The translations under genes and the position numbers were made by a program. Positions 18,969 to 64,000 of a DNA stretch of 64,000 nucleotides are shown here, piece by piece. The notes under the pieces were generated by a model. The model did not search any database. It was not told where the DNA came from and saw nothing but the letters and a program-made list of their open reading frames with translations. Within the stretch, counting starts at the first letter, position 1. Every line of letters starts with the position of its first letter. Source of the stretch: Rhodococcus pyridinivorans (GTDB taxonomy: Bacteria; Actinomycetota; Actinomycetes; Mycobacteriales; Mycobacteriaceae); assembly GCF_900105195.1 (NCBI RefSeq), contig NZ_FNRX01000002.1:2294001-2358000 (forward strand), given 5' to 3'.

Positions 18969-19040
18969 TGGGGTATGGTGTAATTGGCAACACAGCTGAT
19001 TCTGGTTCAGCCATTCTAGGTTCGAGTCCTGGTACCCCAG
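18969..19040 (+). tRNA. tRNA-Gln (anticodon CTG)
   Basis: A 72-base cloverleaf. The acceptor stem TGGGGTA (18969-18975) pairs perfectly with TACCCCA (19033-19039), and the discriminator is G. The anticodon arm is GCTGA-TTCTGGT-TCAGC, giving CTG, which reads CAG. The T-arm contains GGTTCGAGTCC. The 3' CCA is not encoded. Confidence 0.95.
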
Positions 19041-19106
19041 CTGAGACGCGGCGGTTTGCCCGCAACGTCTCAGCCAGCTATGCTGGCTGAGCTTCCTTCG
19101 GGAAGC
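19040..19106 (+). other. Cluster of competing hairpins between tRNA-Gln and the first tRNA-Glu
   Basis: Three stems are visible: 19040-19048 with 19066-19074 (9 bp); 19070-19078 with 19082-19090 (9 bp, TAT loop); and 19091-19096 with 19101-19106 (6 bp, TTCG loop). The first two share 19070-19074 and cannot form together. They may guide tRNA processing or partial termination inside the tRNA transcript. Confidence 0.5.
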
Positions 19107-19126
19107 GAAGAGAAGAAGTTCCATAG

Positions 19127-19199
19127 GCCCCCGTCGTCTAGCGGCCTAGGACGCCGCCCTCTCACGGCGGTAGCGTGGGTTCGAATCCCATCGGGGGTA
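19127..19199 (+). tRNA. tRNA-Glu (anticodon CTC), copy 1
   Basis: A 73-base cloverleaf. Acceptor GCCCCCG (19127-19133) pairs with CGGGGGT (19192-19198), with a G-U first pair and discriminator A. The anticodon arm CCGCC-CTCTCAC-GGCGG gives CTC, which reads GAG. CCA is not encoded. Confidence 0.95.
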
Positions 19200-19208
19200 C
19201 AACGGACT

Positions 19209-19234
19209 ACCCACCGATCTCCGGGTCGGTGGGT
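19209..19234 (+). terminator. Hairpin between the two tRNA-Glu genes
   Basis: A 9-bp inverted repeat (19209-19217 with 19226-19234) is followed by GTTCTTCTCT. It is either a terminator or a processing signal. Confidence 0.5.
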
Positions 19235-19282
19235 GTTCTTCTCTCGGAGGCGTCGGCTCGTCGATTCCTCGGAAAGTTCCAG

Positions 19283-19355
19283 GCCCCCGTCGTCTAGCGG
19301 CCTAGGACGCCGCCCTCTCACGGCGGTAGCGTGGGTTCGAATCCCATCGGGGGTA
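19283..19355 (+). tRNA. tRNA-Glu (anticodon CTC), copy 2
   Basis: This gene is identical over all 73 bases to the copy at 19127, and the identity runs a few bases beyond each end. It is a recent or gene-conversion-maintained tandem duplication. Confidence 0.95.
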
Positions 19356-56996: not shown

Positions 56997-57740
56997 TCAG
57001 GCCACGCGCAGTCCGCGCCGCCGGTGCACGGCCTCGGTGTAGCGCTCGGTGATCACCCGCGCGACGGCATCGTGCCGGGTGAGGGTCTGCGCGACCCGCA
57101 CGTGCCCGAGGCTGTCGGCCTCGGCGCAGGCACGGTCCCACAGCAGTCCGGGGGCGAGGATCCACGGTGTCAGCACGACGGTGCGGGCACCGCGGGAGGT
57201 GAGGTCGGCGAGGGTCGTCCCCACGGACGGACCGGTCGTGGCGAAGCACGCCGCGGCCTGCGTCCACGCCGTGCCGACGAGAATGCGGGGCACGACCAGC
57301 CCGGTCGCCCGGTTCGCTTCGGGGCGTCGCGATCCCACCGCGCACACTGCGATACCGACGGACGGATCGTCGGCCGACACCCCCGTGGCCGTGATGAGAT
57401 CGCGAGCCGCGTCGACGAGGAGATCGTCGTCGCCGAGGATCGGCGAGCACAGCACCTCGAGCAGCGGATGACGTTGCTGCGCTTCGTGCAACAGGGCCGG
57501 CAGATCGACCCGCGCGTGGAAGGCGCTGCCGAGCAGCAGCGGCACCACCGCGACCTGCCGGTGCCCGTCCGCGGCGAGCGCGTCGAGAGCCTGACCGACC
57601 GACGGGGTGTTCAGGTCGAGGAACGCGAGTCGCACGTCCAGACCGGGGTTCTCGGCCCGGACGGTGTCGAGCGCGGCAGCCACGGCCTGCGCCGAACGCG
57701 GGTCGCGACTGCCGTGCGCGACGGCGACGAGCGGCATCAT
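56997..57740 (-). CDS. Sirohydrochlorin ferrochelatase-like (CbiX/SirB) protein
   Basis: The protein (247 residues) is a CbiX-type chelatase. The first domain starts PLVAVAHGSRDPRSAQAVAA with the metal His, and AVVPLLLGSAFHARVDLPAL carries the second His. The C-terminal half is a degenerate repeat. It probably inserts iron into sirohydrochlorin to make siroheme, the cofactor of SirA in this operon. Its ATG overlaps the cysN stop (ATGA). The upstream siroheme methyltransferase is not in the window. Confidence 0.85.
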   Translation of the reverse strand: MMPLVAVAHGSRDPRSAQAVAAALDTVRAENPGLDVRLAFLDLNTPSVGQALDALAADGHRQVAVVPLLLGSAFHARVDLPALLHEAQQRHPLLEVLCSPILGDDDLLVDAARDLITATGVSADDPSVGIAVCAVGSRRPEANRATGLVVPRILVGTAWTQAAACFATTGPSVGTTLADLTSRGARTVVLTPWILAPGLLWDRACAEADSLGHVRVAQTLTRHDAVARVITERYTEAVHRRRGLRVA

Positions 57741-59071
57741 GCCGGGACGCGGTCCCCGAGCTCGATGTCGGCGAGTCCGTCGCCCACGAGACCCGCGGCG
57801 AGGGTGTTGCCCCCGGCCGGATCGATCAGCAGGAAGCTGCCGCTGCGGCGGTTGATGCGGTAGTCGTCCGCGGCGATCGGCTCGGCCACACGCACCGTGA
57901 TGCGCGCGATCTCGTTGAGCTCGATGCTCTCCGGGCTCGGGACGGAGGAGAGATCCTGCTCGTCGAACCGCTCGTCGATCGTCCCGACGATGGCCTGCGT
58001 GATGCGGGTGCCGTGCTTGAGCAGCAACCGGGCGCCCGGGCGCAACGGCTTCTCGGCGAGCCAGCACACGGTGGCCTCGAACTCCGACAGCGGCTCGGGT
58101 GCCGCCTCCGGGGTGGCGATGATGTCGCCGCGGGAGACGTCGACGTCGTCGGCGAGCACGAGGGTCACCGACCGGCCGGCGTGCGCGACATCGAATGCGC
58201 CGTCGGCACTGTCGATGCGCTCGACGGTGGTGCGGACACCGGACGGCAGCACGACGACCTCGTCACCGGGGCGCACGGACCCTGCCGCGACCTGACCGGC
58301 GTAGCCGCGGTAGTCGGGGAACTCGGCGGTGCGGGGACGGATCACGTACTGCACCGGGAAGCGCAGACCGGTCTCGTGCCGGCCGTGCACATCGGCGTCG
58401 ACGGGAACCGACTCGAGGTGCTCGATGAGCGTCGGGCCGTCGTAGTAGGGGGTGCTCTCGCTGCGCACGGCCACGTTGTCGCCGTGCAGCGCGGAGACCG
58501 GGATCTCCTGCACGTCCTCGGGTGCCCAGCCGAGCGAACTCGTCAGTTCCCCGAACTCGGCGGAGATCTGCGCGAACACCGAGGCCGGATCCTCGACGAG
58601 GTCGATCTTGTTGACCGCGAGGACGAGCTTCGGCACACCGAGCAGGGCCAGCACGGCGGCGTGCTTGCGGGTCTGCGAGACGACACCCTTGCGCGCGTCG
58701 ACGAGCAGGACGACGAGCTGCGCGGTGGACGCACCCGACACCGTGTTGCGGGTGTACTGGACGTGACCCGGGGTGTCCGCGAGGACGAAGCTGCGCTTCG
58801 GCGTCGCGAAGTAGCGGTACGCCACGTCGATGGTGATGCCCTGCTCACGCTCGGCGCGAAGGCCGTCGACGAGCAGCGAGAGGTCGGGGGTGTCGAGGCC
58901 GCGGTCGACCGACGCGCGGGTGACGGCGTCGATCTGGTCGGCGAGTACGGACTTGGTGTCGTAGAGCAGTCGTCCCACCAGGGTGGACTTGCCGTCGTCG
59001 ACCGAACCGGCGGTGGCGAGGCGCAGCAGCTGCGTGTCGCTCTGCACGCTCTGCTCGTGAAGGTCGCTCAT
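57737..59071 (-). CDS. cysN: Sulfate adenylyltransferase subunit 1 (GTPase)
   Basis: CysN (444 residues) couples GTP hydrolysis to APS formation by CysD. It is an EF-Tu-like GTPase with G1 LATAGSVDDGKSTLVGRLLY, G3 FVLADTPGHVQYTRNTVSGA and G4 VNKIDLVEDP, followed by two beta-barrel domains. The C-terminal APS-kinase (CysC) domain found in the mycobacterial CysNC fusion is absent, fitting direct reduction of APS by CysH. It starts 2 bases after cysD. Confidence 0.95.
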   Translation of the reverse strand: MSDLHEQSVQSDTQLLRLATAGSVDDGKSTLVGRLLYDTKSVLADQIDAVTRASVDRGLDTPDLSLLVDGLRAEREQGITIDVAYRYFATPKRSFVLADTPGHVQYTRNTVSGASTAQLVVLLVDARKGVVSQTRKHAAVLALLGVPKLVLAVNKIDLVEDPASVFAQISAEFGELTSSLGWAPEDVQEIPVSALHGDNVAVRSESTPYYDGPTLIEHLESVPVDADVHGRHETGLRFPVQYVIRPRTAEFPDYRGYAGQVAAGSVRPGDEVVVLPSGVRTTVERIDSADGAFDVAHAGRSVTLVLADDVDVSRGDIIATPEAAPEPLSEFEATVCWLAEKPLRPGARLLLKHGTRITQAIVGTIDERFDEQDLSSVPSPESIELNEIARITVRVAEPIAADDYRINRRSGSFLLIDPAGGNTLAAGLVGDGLADIELGDRVPA

Positions 59072-59073
59072 GA

Positions 59074-60018
59074 TCAGAAATAGCCCTCTCGCTTGCGGTC
59101 TTCCATCGCCGCTTCGGAAACCCGGTCGTCGCCGCGGGTGGCGCCGCGCTCGGTCAGTCGTGATGCCGCGACCTCGGCGAGGATCTCCTCGTTCGTGGAG
59201 GCCTCGGACAGGATCGCGCCGGTGGTCGATCCGTCGCCGACGGTGCGGTAGCGCACCGAACGCGTCTCGGGCTCTTCGCCCTCGGCCGGACCGCCCCAGA
59301 CACCCGGGGTCATCCACATGCCGTCGCGGCGGTAGACGGGGCGCTCGTGCGCGTAGTAGATGCTCGCCAGTTCGACGTTCTCGCGGGCAATGTAGCGCCA
59401 GATGTCGAGCTCGGTGAAGTTGCTCAGCGGGAAGACACGCACGTGCTCCCCGGGTGCGTGCCGCCCGTTGTACAGATTCCACAACTCCGGACGCTGACGC
59501 TTCGGATCCCACTGGCCGAATGCGTTGCGCAGCGAGAAGATCCGCTCCTTGGCGCGCGAACGCTCCTCGTCGCGGCGGCCGCCACCGAAGACGGCGTCGA
59601 ACCGGTTCTCCGAGATCGCGTCGAGCAGCGGCACGGTCTGCAGCGGGTTGCGGATGCCGTCGGGACGCTCGGTGAGCCGGCCGTCGGCGAGGTAGTCCTC
59701 GACACTCGCGACGTGCAGTCGAAGGTTGTACTTTTCGACGACGTGGTCGCGGAACTCGAGGACCTCGGGGAGGTTGTGGCCGGTGTCGACGTGCAGCAGC
59801 GCGAAGGGCAGCGGCGCGGGCCAGAACGCTTTGATGGCGAGGTGCAGCAGGACGGTGGAGTCCTTGCCTCCCGAGAACAGGATGACGGGGCGTTCGAACT
59901 CGCCCGCGACCTCGCGGAAGACGTGGATCGCTTCCGACTCGAGGGCGTCGAGGGTGTCGAACCGGTTGCCGTCCAGCAGCGTCCGGGTCTCGGTGGGATT
60001 CGTATCGGTGAGTGTCAT
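59074..60018 (-). CDS. cysD: Sulfate adenylyltransferase subunit 2
   Basis: CysD (314 residues) adenylates sulfate to adenosine 5'-phosphosulfate. The PP-loop is RPVILFSGGKDSTVLLHLAI near residue 40, followed by LLHVDTGHNLPEVLEFRDHV. The region GGGRRDEERSRAKERIFSLR and the C-terminal RYRTVGDGSTTGAILSEAS are conserved. Its ATG overlaps the cysH stop (ATGA). Confidence 0.96.
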   Translation of the reverse strand: MTLTDTNPTETRTLLDGNRFDTLDALESEAIHVFREVAGEFERPVILFSGGKDSTVLLHLAIKAFWPAPLPFALLHVDTGHNLPEVLEFRDHVVEKYNLRLHVASVEDYLADGRLTERPDGIRNPLQTVPLLDAISENRFDAVFGGGRRDEERSRAKERIFSLRNAFGQWDPKRQRPELWNLYNGRHAPGEHVRVFPLSNFTELDIWRYIARENVELASIYYAHERPVYRRDGMWMTPGVWGGPAEGEEPETRSVRYRTVGDGSTTGAILSEASTNEEILAEVAASRLTERGATRGDDRVSEAAMEDRKREGYF

Positions 60019-60743
60019 GAGGCGTGCAACCCGCATTCGGTCTTGGCTCGGCCGGCCCAGCGCCCGCTGCGCGGATCGGCTCCGGGAAGTGGTTTGGTGG
60101 TGCACGGGGCGCACCCGATGGACGGGTAGCCCTCGTCGACGAGCGGATTGACGAGGATCCCGTGTTCGTCGATGTAGTTCTGCATGTCCTCGTCGGACCA
60201 TGCCGCGATCGGATTGATCTTCACCAGTCCGAACGCGTCGTCGAACGAGATGAGCGGTGAGTTCGCGCGGGTGGGCGCCTCGACACGGCGGATTCCGGTC
60301 ACCCAGGCGCGGTAGCCCTTCAGGCTCTCCTTCAGCGGCACCACCTTGCGCAGGCGGCAGCACTCGTTCGGGTCGCGGGCGAACAGATCCTTGCCGAGCA
60401 GGGCGTCCTGCTCCGCGACGGACTGCTGCGCCCGGGCGTTGACGATGTTCACGCCGTACACCTGCTCCACCGCATCGCGCGTGCCGAGCGTCTCGGCGAA
60501 GTGGTAGCCGGTGTCGAGGAACAGCACGTCCACGCCGGGGCGCTGCTGCGCGGCCAGATGGACCAGGACACCGTCCTGCATGTTGGACGCGACGATGTAC
60601 CCGCTACGTCCACCGTCGGTGGTGGGGGTACCGAAGGTCTCGTCCGTCCACCGCAGGAGTTCCTGCGCCGACGCACCTTCGAGTTCTGCCGCCCCCTGCG
60701 CGGCAATACTCCGGAGCTCGTCGATGTTCGTATCGATCGTCAT
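60015..60743 (-). CDS. cysH: APS reductase (assimilatory, [4Fe-4S])
   Basis: CysH (242 residues) reduces APS to sulfite with thioredoxin. The cluster-binding pattern CC...CxxC is complete: DPNECCRLRKVVPLKESLKG and YPSIGCAPCTTKPL. The catalytic Cys is in the C-terminal KTECGLH. Presence of the cluster motif indicates an APS rather than PAPS substrate, agreeing with the lack of APS kinase in CysN. Its ATG overlaps the stop of a tiny ORF. Confidence 0.95.
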   Translation of the reverse strand: MTIDTNIDELRSIAAQGAAELEGASAQELLRWTDETFGTPTTDGGRSGYIVASNMQDGVLVHLAAQQRPGVDVLFLDTGYHFAETLGTRDAVEQVYGVNIVNARAQQSVAEQDALLGKDLFARDPNECCRLRKVVPLKESLKGYRAWVTGIRRVEAPTRANSPLISFDDAFGLVKINPIAAWSDEDMQNYIDEHGILVNPLVDEGYPSIGCAPCTTKPLPGADPRSGRWAGRAKTECGLHAS

Positions 60744-60796
60744 CGCGTCCCTTCCCGATCCGTCTTCGTGTCGACCGCTGCAGCAGTGCCCGTCAT
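60740..60796 (-). CDS. 18-residue bridging ORF between sirA and cysH
   Basis: This ORF encodes MTGTAAAVDTKTDREGTR. Its ATG overlaps the sirA stop and its TGA overlaps the cysH start, both as ATGA. It therefore fills the 49-base gap exactly in a chain of coupled genes. It may serve only to carry ribosomes from sirA to cysH, or be a small peptide gene; I recognise no family. GAAGGGA near its 3' end could also serve as the cysH ribosome binding site. Confidence 0.45.
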   Translation of the reverse strand: MTGTAAAVDTKTDREGTR

Positions 60797-62508
60797 CGCA
60801 GGTCTGCCTCCTCGGCGCGGACGACCCATTCGCCGAAGCGCTCGCCGGGCGTGCGCTCCTTGACGAAGGTGCGCACCACCCGCTCGATGTAGTCGCCGAG
60901 CTCGGCGCTGGTGACCTTGTGCTGGCGCAGCTTGCGTCCGAACTTCGCGTCGAAGCCCAGCGCACCGCCGAGGTGCACCTGGAAACCTTCGACCTGGTTG
61001 CCCTCACCGTCGTCGACGAGTTGACCCTTGAAGCCGATGTCGGCGATCTGGGAGCGCGCACACGAGTTCGGGCAGCCGTTGATGTTGATCGTCACCGGGA
61101 CGTCGAGCTGCGCGTTGATGTCGGCGAGACGCTCCTCGAGCTCGGGCACGAGGGCTTGCGAACGCTTGCGCGTCTCGACGAAGGACAGCTTGCAGAACTC
61201 GATTCCCGTGCACGCCATGAGATTCTTGCGCCACGGCGACGGCGAGGCCGGCAGACCCAGCGCCTCGAGCTCGGTGACGAGCTGCTCGACCTTGTCGTCG
61301 GCCACGTCGAGCACGATCAGCTTCTGGTATGGGGTGAACCGGATCCGGTCGGAACCCGCACGTTCGGCGGCGTCGGCGACCTTCGACAGGATCGTGCCCG
61401 AGACACGACCGGCGATCGGCGCGACACCCACGGCGTTGAGGCCGTTGCGCAGCTTCTGGATACCGACGTGATCGATGGGACGCTCCGGTGCGGCCGGGGC
61501 CGGGCCGTCGATGAGCGGACGCTTCAGGTACTCGGTTTCGAGCACCTCGCGGAACTTCTCGATGCCCCAGTCCTTGATGAGGAACTTCAGGCGTGCCTTG
61601 GACCGCAGCCGCCGGTAGCCGTAGTCGCGGAAGATCGCGACGACGCCTTCCCACACATCGGCGACCTCCTCGAGCGGCACCCAGGCGCCGACCCGCTGCG
61701 CGAGCATCGGGTTGGTGGACAGGCCGCCGCCGACCCACAGGTCGAAGCCGGGGCCGTGCTCGGGATGCTCGACGCCGATGAAGGCGACGTCGTTGATCTC
61801 GTGCACGACGTCCTGCTGGCCGGAGATCGCGGTCTTGAACTTGCGCGGCAGGTTCGAGTACTCGGGGTTGCCGATGTAGCGGCGCACGATCTCGTCGATC
61901 GCGGGGGTGCCGTCGATGATCTCGTCGAGGGACTCACCGGCGAGCGGCGAACCGAGCACGACGCGAGGGCAGTCGCCGCACGCCTCGGTGGTCTTCAGGC
62001 CGACCGATTCGAGACGACGCCAGATCTCGGGGACGTTCTCGACCTCGATCCAGTGGTACTGGACGTTCTCGCGGTCGGACAGGTCGGCGGTGTCGCGACC
62101 GAACTCGGTGGAGATACCGGCGATCGTCCGCAGCTGCGCGAGATTCAGGGCGCCGGCGTCGCAGCGCACCCGCATCATGAAGTACTTCGCCTCGAGCAGG
62201 TCGATGTTCTCGTCACCGGTGTAGGTGCCGTCGTAGCCCTGCTCGCGCTGGGTGTACAGACCCCACCAGCGGAAGCGGCCGCGCAGATCGCTCTTGTCGA
62301 TTCCGTCGAAACCGGTTTGCGCATAGATGTTCTCGATACGCTTGCGGACGTTGAGCGGGTTGTCGTCCTTCTTCGTCTGCTCGTTGGCGTTGAGCGGCTC
62401 CCGGTAGCCGAGGGCCCACTGGCCTTCGGCGCGACGCTTGGCGGGACGCGCGCGGCGGGCGGGAGTGGCCGACTCGTCGGCGGGCGTGACGTCGGTGGTC
62501 GACGACAT
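60793..62508 (-). CDS. sirA: Ferredoxin-dependent sulfite reductase
   Basis: SirA (571 residues) reduces sulfite to sulfide with six electrons from ferredoxin, using siroheme and a [4Fe-4S] cluster. The cluster/siroheme Cys motifs are ACTGIEFCKLSFVETR near residue 430 and NINGCPNSCARSQIADIG near 478. Substrate-binding basic residues lie in EACGDCPRVVLGSPLAGESL. It is closer to mycobacterial SirA than to nitrite reductase, and the operon context (cysHDN) supports sulfite. AGGAG lies 7 bases before the ATG, inside a hairpin that could hide it. Confidence 0.94.
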   Translation of the reverse strand: MSSTTDVTPADESATPARRARPAKRRAEGQWALGYREPLNANEQTKKDDNPLNVRKRIENIYAQTGFDGIDKSDLRGRFRWWGLYTQREQGYDGTYTGDENIDLLEAKYFMMRVRCDAGALNLAQLRTIAGISTEFGRDTADLSDRENVQYHWIEVENVPEIWRRLESVGLKTTEACGDCPRVVLGSPLAGESLDEIIDGTPAIDEIVRRYIGNPEYSNLPRKFKTAISGQQDVVHEINDVAFIGVEHPEHGPGFDLWVGGGLSTNPMLAQRVGAWVPLEEVADVWEGVVAIFRDYGYRRLRSKARLKFLIKDWGIEKFREVLETEYLKRPLIDGPAPAAPERPIDHVGIQKLRNGLNAVGVAPIAGRVSGTILSKVADAAERAGSDRIRFTPYQKLIVLDVADDKVEQLVTELEALGLPASPSPWRKNLMACTGIEFCKLSFVETRKRSQALVPELEERLADINAQLDVPVTININGCPNSCARSQIADIGFKGQLVDDGEGNQVEGFQVHLGGALGFDAKFGRKLRQHKVTSAELGDYIERVVRTFVKERTPGERFGEWVVRAEEADLR

Positions 62509-62515
62509 ACAGGGT

Positions 62516-62555
62516 CTCCTGATACTCGCTGGAACCGGATCGACGAGCGCAGGAG
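62516..62555 (-). promoter_or_regulatory. Hairpin sequestering the sirA ribosome binding site
   Basis: Read on the minus strand, CTCCTG (62555-62550) pairs with CAGGAG (62521-62516), which contains the sirA Shine-Dalgarno, and CTCG (62547-62544) pairs with CGAG (62528-62525). Together this is a 10-bp stem with a small internal loop. It would lower sirA translation unless opened. Confidence 0.5.
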
Positions 62556-62619
62556 GGAGCTGACCTCGTGCACGCATGCTTCGACCCGGCGGGATCTGGG
62601 ATGTGCCGGGGAGTGCCGA

Positions 62620-62730
62620 CTAGAGACAGTCGGCGCAGAGACAAGCGGCGCAAGGCAGACAACAGGATGCGCAGACGCGCTTGAAGTCGACGTGGCGTCG
62701 CGCCACGAGTCGCACTCCGTGTCCTGTCAT
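62620..62730 (-). CDS. Cysteine-rich upstream leader peptide of the sirA operon
   Basis: A 36-codon ORF, ATG to TAG, has eight Cys among its last 17 residues, CASCCLPCAACLCADCL. Its N-terminal part, VRLVARRHVDFKR, matches the RRHVD motif of sulfur-operon leader peptides in actinobacteria. CACAAT stands 7 bases before the ATG, so it may be leaderless. It lies 111 bases before sirA and the ribosome-binding-site hairpin. Stalling for Cys-tRNA should signal cysteine shortage and raise expression of sulfite reduction. Confidence 0.7.
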   Translation of the reverse strand: MTGHGVRLVARRHVDFKRVCASCCLPCAACLCADCL

Positions 62731-62861
62731 GCGGACCATTGTGCCACGTCACCGGGACGATTCCGAATTGCGGGCGGTATTTCCACCCGATTTTCGGGAA
62801 ATGTCGAGGTAGGGGCGTCGCGCGCGGAGCCGCCCTTCAGGTCTCTGGAACACTGGAGGGC

Positions 62862-64000
62862 GTGAACAGCACTGAGATCGGTCGACGCACCGGCACGGAA
62901 ATCGGTATCGCGGGTCGTCCGGCCGGTCTCGAACTTCCCGCTTCGGCACTCGCAGGAGTGGGGACGCGACCGTTCGGTGTGTACGTGCACGTGCCCTTCT
63001 GCGCGACCCGCTGCGGCTACTGCGACTTCAACACCTACACGGCCGGGGAACTCGGCAGCGCGGCGTCGCCGCAGTCCTGGCTGGAGGGTCTGCGCCGCGA
63101 ACTCGACGCCGGTGCCCGGCTGCTGTCCGAATCCGGACGACGGACTCCCGCTGCCGAGACGGTCTTCGTCGGCGGCGGAACACCCTCGCTGCTCGGCGCG
63201 GACGGTCTCGCGCAGGTGCTCGACGCGATCCGCGACTCGTTCGGGCTCGCTCCCGGCGCCGAGGTGACCACCGAATCGAACCCGGAGTCGACCTCCACGG
63301 AGTTCTTCTCGTCGATCCGCGAGGCCGGATACACCCGCGTGTCGCTCGGCATGCAGTCCGCGGCGCCCCACGTGCTGGCGGTCCTCGACCGCACCCACAC
63401 ACCCGGGCGTCCCGTCGCGGCGGCGAAGGAAGCGCGCGCGGCCGGTTTCGGCCACATCAACCTCGATCTGATCTACGGCACTCCCGGCGAGCGCGACGCC
63501 GACCTCGACGCCTCCCTCGACGCCGTGCTCGAAGCGGGGGTCGACCACGTCTCGGCGTACGCGCTCATCGTCGAGGACGGCACCGCCCTCGCTCGCCGTG
63601 TCCGTCGCGGCGAGCTGCCGGCTCCGGACGACGACGTGCTCGCATCGCGGTACGAGCGGATCGACGCGCGACTCGCCGACGCCGGGATGACCTGGTACGA
63701 GGTGTCCAACTGGGCGAAGGCCGATGATCCGTCGGCGCGCTGCGCCCACAACCTCGGTTACTGGGACGGCGGCGACTGGTGGGGCGCCGGGCCGGGCGCG
63801 CACAGCCACGTCGGTGGCGTGCGCTGGTGGAACGTCAAGCATCCCGCCCGTTACGCGTCGACCCTCGCCGACGGAGTCCTGCCCGTCGGGGGCAGCGAAC
63901 ATCTCACGGCCGAGGACCGGCACACCGAACTCGTCATGCTCACCGTCCGGCTGCGCACGGGCCTGCCGTTGTCGGAGCTCGACGACGGTGAGCGCGAGGC
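62862..64000 (+). CDS. hemW: Radical SAM coproporphyrinogen III oxidase-like protein HemW (right-truncated)
   Basis: The frame is open to the end of the window, about 380 codons. The radical SAM cluster motif is VPFCATRCGYCDFNTYTAGE (CxxxCxxC) near residues 45-65. It is followed by VFVGGGTPSLLGADGLAQVL, TTESNPES, RVSLGMQSAAPHVLAVLDRT and INLDLIYGTPGERDADLDAS, then the HemN-type C-terminal part (WYEVSNWAKADDPSARCAHN, GAGPGAHSHVGGVRWWNVKH). HemW proteins are heme chaperones rather than true oxidases. GTG 62862 is chosen with GGAGGG nearby; no ATG is available before the motif. It is divergent from the sirA leader. Confidence 0.92.
   Translation, partial: MNSTEIGRRTGTEIGIAGRPAGLELPASALAGVGTRPFGVYVHVPFCATRCGYCDFNTYTAGELGSAASPQSWLEGLRRELDAGARLLSESGRRTPAAETVFVGGGTPSLLGADGLAQVLDAIRDSFGLAPGAEVTTESNPESTSTEFFSSIREAGYTRVSLGMQSAAPHVLAVLDRTHTPGRPVAAAKEARAAGFGHINLDLIYGTPGERDADLDASLDAVLEAGVDHVSAYALIVEDGTALARRVRRGELPAPDDDVLASRYERIDARLADAGMTWYEVSNWAKADDPSARCAHNLGYWDGGDWWGAGPGAHSHVGGVRWWNVKHPARYASTLADGVLPVGGSEHLTAEDRHTELVMLTVRLRTGLPLSELDDGERE

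Follow-up and report, generated by a model that had tools for sequence, protein, structure and literature searches.

The sirA gene of Rhodococcus pyridinivorans lies on the minus strand of a 64,000-nucleotide (nt) stretch of contig NZ_FNRX01000002.1 (positions 2,294,001 to 2,358,000; hereafter the window, whose numbering is used throughout), and is preceded there by a short open reading frame (ORF) in which cysteine codons cluster close to the stop codon. We conclude that this leader very likely lets ribosomes sense cysteine shortage, and that the leader and the spacer following it probably constitute a cysteine-responsive translational attenuator of the sirA-cysH-cysD-cysN-cbiX operon. Five parts of this picture come from sequence comparison: i) the leader itself; ii) its Cys tract; iii) a leaderless layout; iv) conservation of the leader at the amino acid level; and v) a conserved RNA element, P1/P2, in the spacer. 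Mutual exclusion of alternative folds, and the switch built on it, are predicted for the window only, and we infer transcription as an operon, ribosome stalling, response to cysteine, and the direction of control.

A polycysteine leader upstream of sirA

A preliminary description of the window correctly placed a 36-residue minus-strand ORF before sirA, with a gap of 111 nt between its stop codon and the sirA ATG (62508). The ORF runs from an ATG at 62730 to a TAG at 62620, and its predicted product is MTGHGVRLVARRHVDFKRVCASCCLPCAACLCADCL. All its cysteines do fall within the last 17 residues, but they number seven (residues 20, 23, 24, 27, 30, 32, and 35), the eight reported earlier being a miscount. 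Stop-free stretches of 17 codons with at least seven Cys codons occur at two places in the six frames of the 64 kb, both overlapping inside the leader ORF, and none is seen when the whole window is dinucleotide-shuffled 60 times; having no equal elsewhere in the six frames or in the shuffles, the Cys run is not a product of chance.

The leader DNA is present in every genus genome of the set (18/18). Searched for by regular expression, the peptide motif turns up ahead of sirA in 130 of 184 loci (53/104 in one genome set and 77/80 in another, the two sets overlapping partly in genomes), and the loci lacking it belong mostly to other families of the order or to deeper genera within the same family. 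Across the 15-codon block GVRLVARRHVDxKRV that precedes the Cys tract, differences among 98 distinct leaders amount to 23.5%, 16.3%, and 60.2% at codon positions 1, 2, and 3, respectively, a descriptive count rather than a test since related sequences are treated as independent. The L, R, R, D, and R of the block are invariant in all 91 codon strings (91/91), each being encoded by at least two codons. The third-position excess, together with residues held invariant despite synonymous variation, argues for selection on the peptide over and above the Cys codons. That the ORF is simply a small one whose cysteines arose by chance and which regulates nothing is scarcely credible in the face of this codon-position pattern, the 18/18 genomes, the 0/60 shuffles, and a match to a curated family that falls just below cut-off (see below).

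Codon use within the Cys tract is also unusual. TGT accounts for 236 of 385 Cys codons in the 98 distinct leaders versus 10 of 555 (about 2%) in 79 sirA genes, and at motif position 13 (window codon 24, 62661-62659) for 92 of the 93 distinct leaders with Cys there. The preference is uneven, motif position 9 being TGC in 65 leaders and TGT in 31, and position 21 TGC in 13 and TGT in 1. A slow TGT codon would sharpen stalling; RNA pairing is another possible reason for the bias. In Rhodococcus sp. CH91 (locus L106), a TGA ends the leader two codons early, leaving 34 residues with six Cys.

The leader start is accompanied by a promoter-like hexamer at a fixed distance: of 101 distinct promoters, 77 have CACAAT or CAGAAT 7 nt 5′ of the in-frame start and a further 6 have it 6 nt 5′, while a sequence resembling a Shine-Dalgarno (SD) precedes the start in 2/101 and is absent in 99/101. 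Judged by this comparison the layout appears leaderless, with no SD and with the start codon probably at or adjoining the transcript start. Divergent from the leader is a radical-SAM gene (62739-63998, plus strand), which we take to be HemW-like and whose longest open frame starts within the leader promoter region.

Relation to known cysteine leaders

The leader aligns with the NCBIfam profile leader_Ms4527A (NF042936) over all 21 profile positions (44.4 bits, E 8.5e-12), and a search of the genome with this profile returns it as the sole good match (44 bits, E 1.6e-10; next 0.36). Homologues from R. koreensis/R. jostii (50.7 bits) and Nocardia (49.7 bits) both exceed the curated cut-off. The family name presumably denotes the M. 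smegmatis short ORF upstream of Msmeg_4527. By place and alignment the window peptide is an Ms4527A orthologue; its score lies below the cut-off, and we make no formal family call. Conserved Cys-rich short ORFs preceding nirA/Msmeg_4527 in mycobacteria are described in passages of Shell 2015 (including the legend to Fig 7C), and Canestrari 2020, as represented in papers citing it, characterizes polycysteine short ORFs as cysteine-responsive attenuators, working by translation attenuation in M. smegmatis. Two marks of the leaderless polycysteine type, a cluster of Cys codons near the ORF end and a same-strand position upstream of a cysteine/sulfur operon, can be read from the window sequence. 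A cysteine-sensing leader before sirA, as first suggested in the preliminary description, is thus right in kind and already known, given the NF042936 match and the mycobacterial precedents as far as these sources convey them.

The Rhodococcus leader shares with the mycobacterial Ms4527A/nirA(sirA) arrangement the downstream gene, the Cys cluster near the stop, the profile match, and the apparently leaderless layout, but has a longer Cys tail (7 Cys, ending in CAACLCADCL) and a score just under the cut-off. The Ms5788A leader of the cysA2 operon (NF042933) is likewise a Cys-rich leader peptide, but its downstream gene differs and the window leader has no NF042933 match; NF042934 (putative leader peptide, cis_reg_atten) has an RR..VDLxR core in common with the window leader, which nonetheless scores only 15.8 bits against a cut-off of 27. 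The Cys leader peptides of mycobacterial cys operons and Propionibacterium acnes in Seliverstov 2005 likewise precede cys operons and have successive Cys codons close to their stop; no conserved hairpin able to act as a terminator is reported in that study, whereas Rhodococcus has a conserved hairpin element, though no terminator. This P1/P2 element of Rhodococcus, Nocardia, and their neighbours is not described in the mycobacterial Ms4527A passages of these sources, nor did the best-ranked literature matches include a description of it or any work on the sirA leader in Rhodococcus, although Canestrari 2020 may contain the element.

Further leaders of this general kind occur in the same genome, where the core of RRHVDxKR recurs. 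A Cys-rich leader, MLTRRRAVDLCRLGGCCCPC, at G000:C2:4660398-4660463 (plus strand; L265/L273) is Ms5788A-like (38 bits, cut-off 45) and lies 118 nt 5′ of a 154-residue ORF. Four short leaders (G000:C2:1160228, 4941882, 4943341, and 1529749; L266-L269) have the RR..VDLxR core and Cys near the stop, three of them above the NF042934 cut-off, and NF042934 exceeds its cut-off at four places in the genome, none of them the window leader. Several leaders read through cysteine, of the kind reported for mycobacteria, may exist in this genome. A genome-wide Cys-triplet pattern was uninformative, giving 397 + 404 matches versus 744 + 724 in a reversed control.

A conserved RNA element just before the Shine-Dalgarno

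Alignment of the spacers reveals a conserved folded element, P1/P2, just before the sirA SD, with compensatory changes and no matching Rfam family. It comprises an outer helix (P1) enclosing a small hairpin (P2a) and a stem (P2b) whose loop generally reads NCAGCCC and in the window TCAGCTC. In a 21-sequence alignment (A1), P1 and a 7-pair P2 are paired in 89.1% of cells, as against 31-53% when the structure is slid, and the covariation score of 0.190 is above all 500 shuffles (mean 0.145); the 5 doubly changed pairs are matched by 68/500 shuffles, and the structure slid by -3 equals the 13 doubly changed cells. The 18 Rhodococcus sequences of A5 give 92.8% paired versus at most 47.9% when slid, with a score of 0.158 that again exceeds all 500 shuffles, and 3 pairs changed on both sides, a number reached by 74/500 shuffles. 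A4 consists of 16 sequences from Nocardia, Aldersonia, Antrihabitans, and one further genus, selected for showing a recognizable form of the architecture; in it 90.9% of cells are paired (at most 54.7% when slid), 9 of 16 pairs have changed on both sides, and the score is 0.292, the last two values lying beyond all 500 shuffles. The P1 core occurs as GCTG/CAGC, TGCG/CGCA, or CACG/CGTG. A single alignment across Rhodococcus and Nocardia types (A2) was abandoned because the stems were misaligned (a MAFFT version folded at -1.8), and was replaced by the separate A4 and A5.

The loop motif recurs in a low-redundancy set of 53 spacers, in which it had been noticed before being tested: CAGCC is present in 39/53, as compared with 14.3 on average, and never more than 23, across 200 shuffles. 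When CAGCC is held fixed its flanks give on average 8.6 pairs, versus 2.2 in shuffled flanks, and a P2 of at least 4 pairs forms in 28 of the 39 CAGCC spacers (controls 9.9, at most 17). With CAGCTC in its loop, the window does not satisfy the strict motif. Rfam 15 yielded no covariance-model match up to E = 10 in 62480-62760, and at gathering scores the whole window returned only three tRNAs.

Models R1 (from A4) and R2 (from A5) define how far the element can be followed. R1 recovers six held-out loci where expected, each with an E of at most 0.005 (L137, L154, L175, L160, L145, L182), and detects a strong copy once per genome in the 7 source genomes (next best 0.15), but misses the window element (11 matches in 39 sources; 5 in the window's own genome, best E 0.39, none at sirA); the unity of Rhodococcus and Nocardia types therefore rests on architecture, loop, and position. 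R2 matches 8 of 31 held-out loci in the expected position, some 10-22 nt ahead of the SD, with E 0.07-0.46 (L125, L122, L114, L025, L132, L108, L015, and L147, L015 being of the L108 type), and in L149 it matches about 62 nt before the SD (E 0.0077). Only position identifies these held-out matches, because matches elsewhere reach similar E (0.063, 0.086, 0.10). R2 has no match at the expected place in the six Nocardia loci it was given, nor in L184, L027, L031, L032, L022, or L176. It finds a single strong copy (E below 1e-9) in each of 12 genus genomes, all of them model sources (next best 0.016), and none in six genomes of other families (best 0.02); the window's genome holds one copy by R2. 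We ascribed to chance the weak R1 and R2 matches (E no better than 0.016) elsewhere in genomes.

Alternatively, P1/P2 and the NCAGCCC loop it carries could be a regulator in their own right, bound by a protein or ligand or acting as a standby or stability element, and not worked by the leader at all. Loop and architecture are kept while the stem sequences change, the P2b loop is more constant than folding alone needs, and P2 formation depends little on the leader (mean 0.729 in its presence and 0.841 in its absence). Yet each searched genome has a single strong P1/P2 copy, located beside the sirA leader, and the element has neither an Rfam match nor a known partner; we regard an independent regulator as possible, though we would not expect it.

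A candidate switch and its alternatives

We favor the following course of events. The mRNA would start at or very near the leader ATG at 62730, and translation of the leader would not involve an SD. A shortage of charged Cys-tRNA would stall the ribosome in the C-terminal Cys tract, by analogy with the mycobacterial homologue, and the stalled ribosome would keep the tract off the downstream RNA, so that P1/P2 (62590-62534) is predicted to fold, to take part of the 5′ arm of a hairpin pairing the SD (62555-62516), and thereby to free the sirA SD. With ample cysteine the leader would be cleared, its Cys tract would pair with the 5′ half of P1/P2, and formation of the SD hairpin would follow. Canestrari 2020 is reported to find that a stalled ribosome prevents mRNA structures from forming that would otherwise occlude the ribosome-binding site.

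Folding of the window RNA is consistent with this scheme. The segment 62730-62490 folds at z = -2.63 (3/200 shuffles fold equally well), and the best fold predicted for the free RNA joins the Cys tract to the 5′ half of P1/P2. An unoccupied leader leaves the SD unpaired at 0.01 and P1 formed at 0.00, values that climb to 0.24-0.31 and 0.59-0.86, respectively, once a ribosome sits at Cys 24 or beyond. The preliminary description had held that a further alternative helix must transmit the signal, and P1/P2, being incompatible with the SD hairpin in the window, is the best candidate for it; control of that helix by the Cys tract is predicted by folding for the window but does not show as a tuned feature across the group (P = 0.087 and 0.15, below).

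Several results weigh against our reading, beginning with the peptide, which misses the curated NF042936 cut-off of 45 bits by 0.6 bits. In the window, a stall at the first Cys codon changes nothing, and a ribosome at the stop codon has as large an effect as a stalled one (SD 0.34, P1 0.97); with the SD freed to the same degree in either case, dwell time would have to carry the signal. Among 21 near relatives, stalling clearly raises SD accessibility in just two, the window and R. gordoniae (L105). Across 98 relatives the accessibility averages 0.318 for a free leader, 0.313 when a ribosome occupies the middle Cys codon, and 0.324 for recoded leaders (30 synonymous recodings of each). Stalling shifts the value by at least 0.2 upward in 7 (L001, L005, L031, L032, L046, L132, L176) and downward in 8, and in five of those 7 the SD is paired with the leader instead of the hairpin, a form of trap named for upstream-ORF systems in literature citing Canestrari 2020. 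In 53 sequences the leader lowers P1 (0.521 with it versus 0.666 without, P = 0.008, for a P1 picked by length that in some rows, such as L005, differs from the alignment P1), and recoded leaders lower it equally (0.486, P = 0.15). Most Nocardia-type sequences have a P2b of 6-9 base pairs (bp) that forms with or without the leader. We therefore hold the sensor with high confidence and the window's switch as only plausible, on the predicted folds, with a group-wide role of P1/P2 less firm, because recoded leaders compete equally and the Nocardia-type P2 is independent of the leader.

Four group-wide candidates were rejected: i) the SD trap, by the same 98 relatives set against their recodings; ii) tuning of the leader against P1, at P = 0.087 in 21 sequences and P = 0.15 in 53, both versus recoded leaders; iii) direct leader-SD pairing, with a mean of 0.283 versus 0.266 in controls over the 98 relatives; and iv) conserved leader-to-spacer helices, the best being 5 bp and weak, the top one G-U rich.

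Taken as a model, the preliminary description would make the hairpin at 62555-62516 itself the regulatory device, a conserved SD trap opened by stalling in the leader. The 10-bp stem is present, as two helices split by an internal loop and 64 nt beyond the leader stop; by folding it is dominant in the window (SD unpaired 0.01) and likewise in R. gordoniae (L105). Through the 21 A1 sequences, window first, the pairs kept number 10, 9, 9, 9, 9, 9, 8, 6, 7, 5, 4, 4, 3, 4, 4, 5, 4, 6, 4, 4, and 4, that is, at least 8 of 10 in 7/21 (window included) and 3-7 in the remainder, even as CAGGAG at the SD is invariant in 21/21. The covariation score is 0.070 against a shuffle mean of 0.073, 491/500 shuffles scoring at least as high. 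Of the ORF and the hairpin, whose presence in close relatives the preliminary description had made its test, the former is retained in all 18 genus genomes and the latter fails beyond the nearest species. Given the loss of pairs, the null covariation, and the lack of a mean SD trap over the 98 relatives, the predicted trap is a property of the window and R. gordoniae rather than of the group, and as a conserved device it is rather doubtful. SD and spacer can also form a small hairpin of their own in the window (CAGG-AGAC-CCTG, 62521-62510), and several relatives likewise pair the SD downstream. A separate 7-bp hairpin over the leader stop (62615-62634) keeps 7 pairs in 14/21 near relatives including the window, 6 in one, and none in six.

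In classical attenuators such as trp and leu, the leader peptide carries codons for the end product of the operon. The sirA leader differs from these in having no T-run terminator hairpin, and control is most likely exerted at translation start. An intrinsic terminator is not evident because the 111-nt spacer has no run of at least 3 T (62619-62509, by inspection of the sequence, no terminator scanner having been run). Transcription could instead be ended by Rho if, with cysteine plentiful, the untranslated C-rich RNA after the leader recruited Rho before sirA was reached, and if a stalled ribosome together with P1/P2 denied Rho its site. The spacer is indeed C-rich, P1/P2 buries the C-rich stretch CAGCTCCCTCC, and Seliverstov 2005 proposed such a model for mycobacterial cys leaders, in a passage that calls it a "weak prediction," as no conserved terminator hairpin was found. 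Since Canestrari 2020 is cited as showing translation attenuation in M. smegmatis, we consider Rho-dependent attenuation unlikely, and prefer translational attenuation through the leader.

The conserved features might act jointly. RRHVDxKR, its RRHVD placed 9-13 residues ahead of the Cys codon that varies least, could serve as a nascent-chain stall primer, with that Cys codon fixed as the rare and probably slow TGT and the stall read by the undescribed NCAGCCC-loop element, which would be a true structured regulator rather than a simple SD trap; we offer this tentatively, as a speculation that may well fail.

Features of the region

The genes presumed to follow sirA in the operon are listed with the other features in Table 1. 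The closest named SirA among those listed is that of R. gordoniae (97% identity). Far from the leader, three successive tRNA genes lie at 18969-19355 on the plus strand (Rfam RF00005).

Table 1. Positions of the sirA leader, associated RNA features, and downstream genes in the window
Feature	Position	Strand	Basis
-10-like hexamer CACAAT (putative leaderless promoter)	62738..62743	minus	sequence; 7 nt 5′ of leader ATG
Leader ORF, 36 residues, Ms4527A-like polycysteine leader peptide	62620..62730, stop included	minus	sequence, NF042936 match, conservation upstream of sirA
Cys tract	62626..62673	minus	codon order TGC TGT TGT TGC TGT TGC TGT
7-bp hairpin over leader stop, GCCGACT/AGTCGGC	62615..62634	minus	pair counts in near relatives
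Conserved RNA element P1/P2	62534..62590	minus	alignments A1 and A5, covariation
P1 outer helix	62590-62581 with 62543-62534	minus	comparative pairing
P2a small hairpin	62579-62577 with 62572-62570	minus	comparative pairing
P2b stem, loop TCAGCTC 62563-62557	62567-62564 with 62556-62553	minus	comparative pairing
SD-trapping hairpin, CTCCTG/CAGGAG + CTCG/CGAG	62516..62555	minus	10/10 pairs in window
SD AGGAG of sirA	62516..62520	minus	sequence
sirA, nitrite/sulfite reductase family	60793..62508	minus	Pfam PF01077, PF03460
cysH-like PAPS/APS reductase, next in presumed operon	60015..60821, start approximate	minus	Pfam PF01507
cysD-like protein, PAPS_reduct domain	59077..60036, start approximate	minus	Pfam PF01507
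cysN-like GTPase	57740..59077, start approximate	minus	Pfam PF00009, PF22594
CbiX-family protein	56997..57743, start approximate	minus	Pfam PF01903

Implications

Cysteine attenuation was already known in mycobacteria; what is added here is the conserved NCAGCCC element, the fixation of TGT, and the peptide-level conservation of RRHVDxKR. The conserved structure before the SD in Rhodococcus and Nocardia provides a defined target for asking how ribosome stalling becomes expression, and TGT fixation together with peptide conservation raises the question of whether the sensor depends on codon identity and the nascent chain besides the number of Cys. Control of sulfur metabolism is also relevant to biodesulfurising rhodococci.

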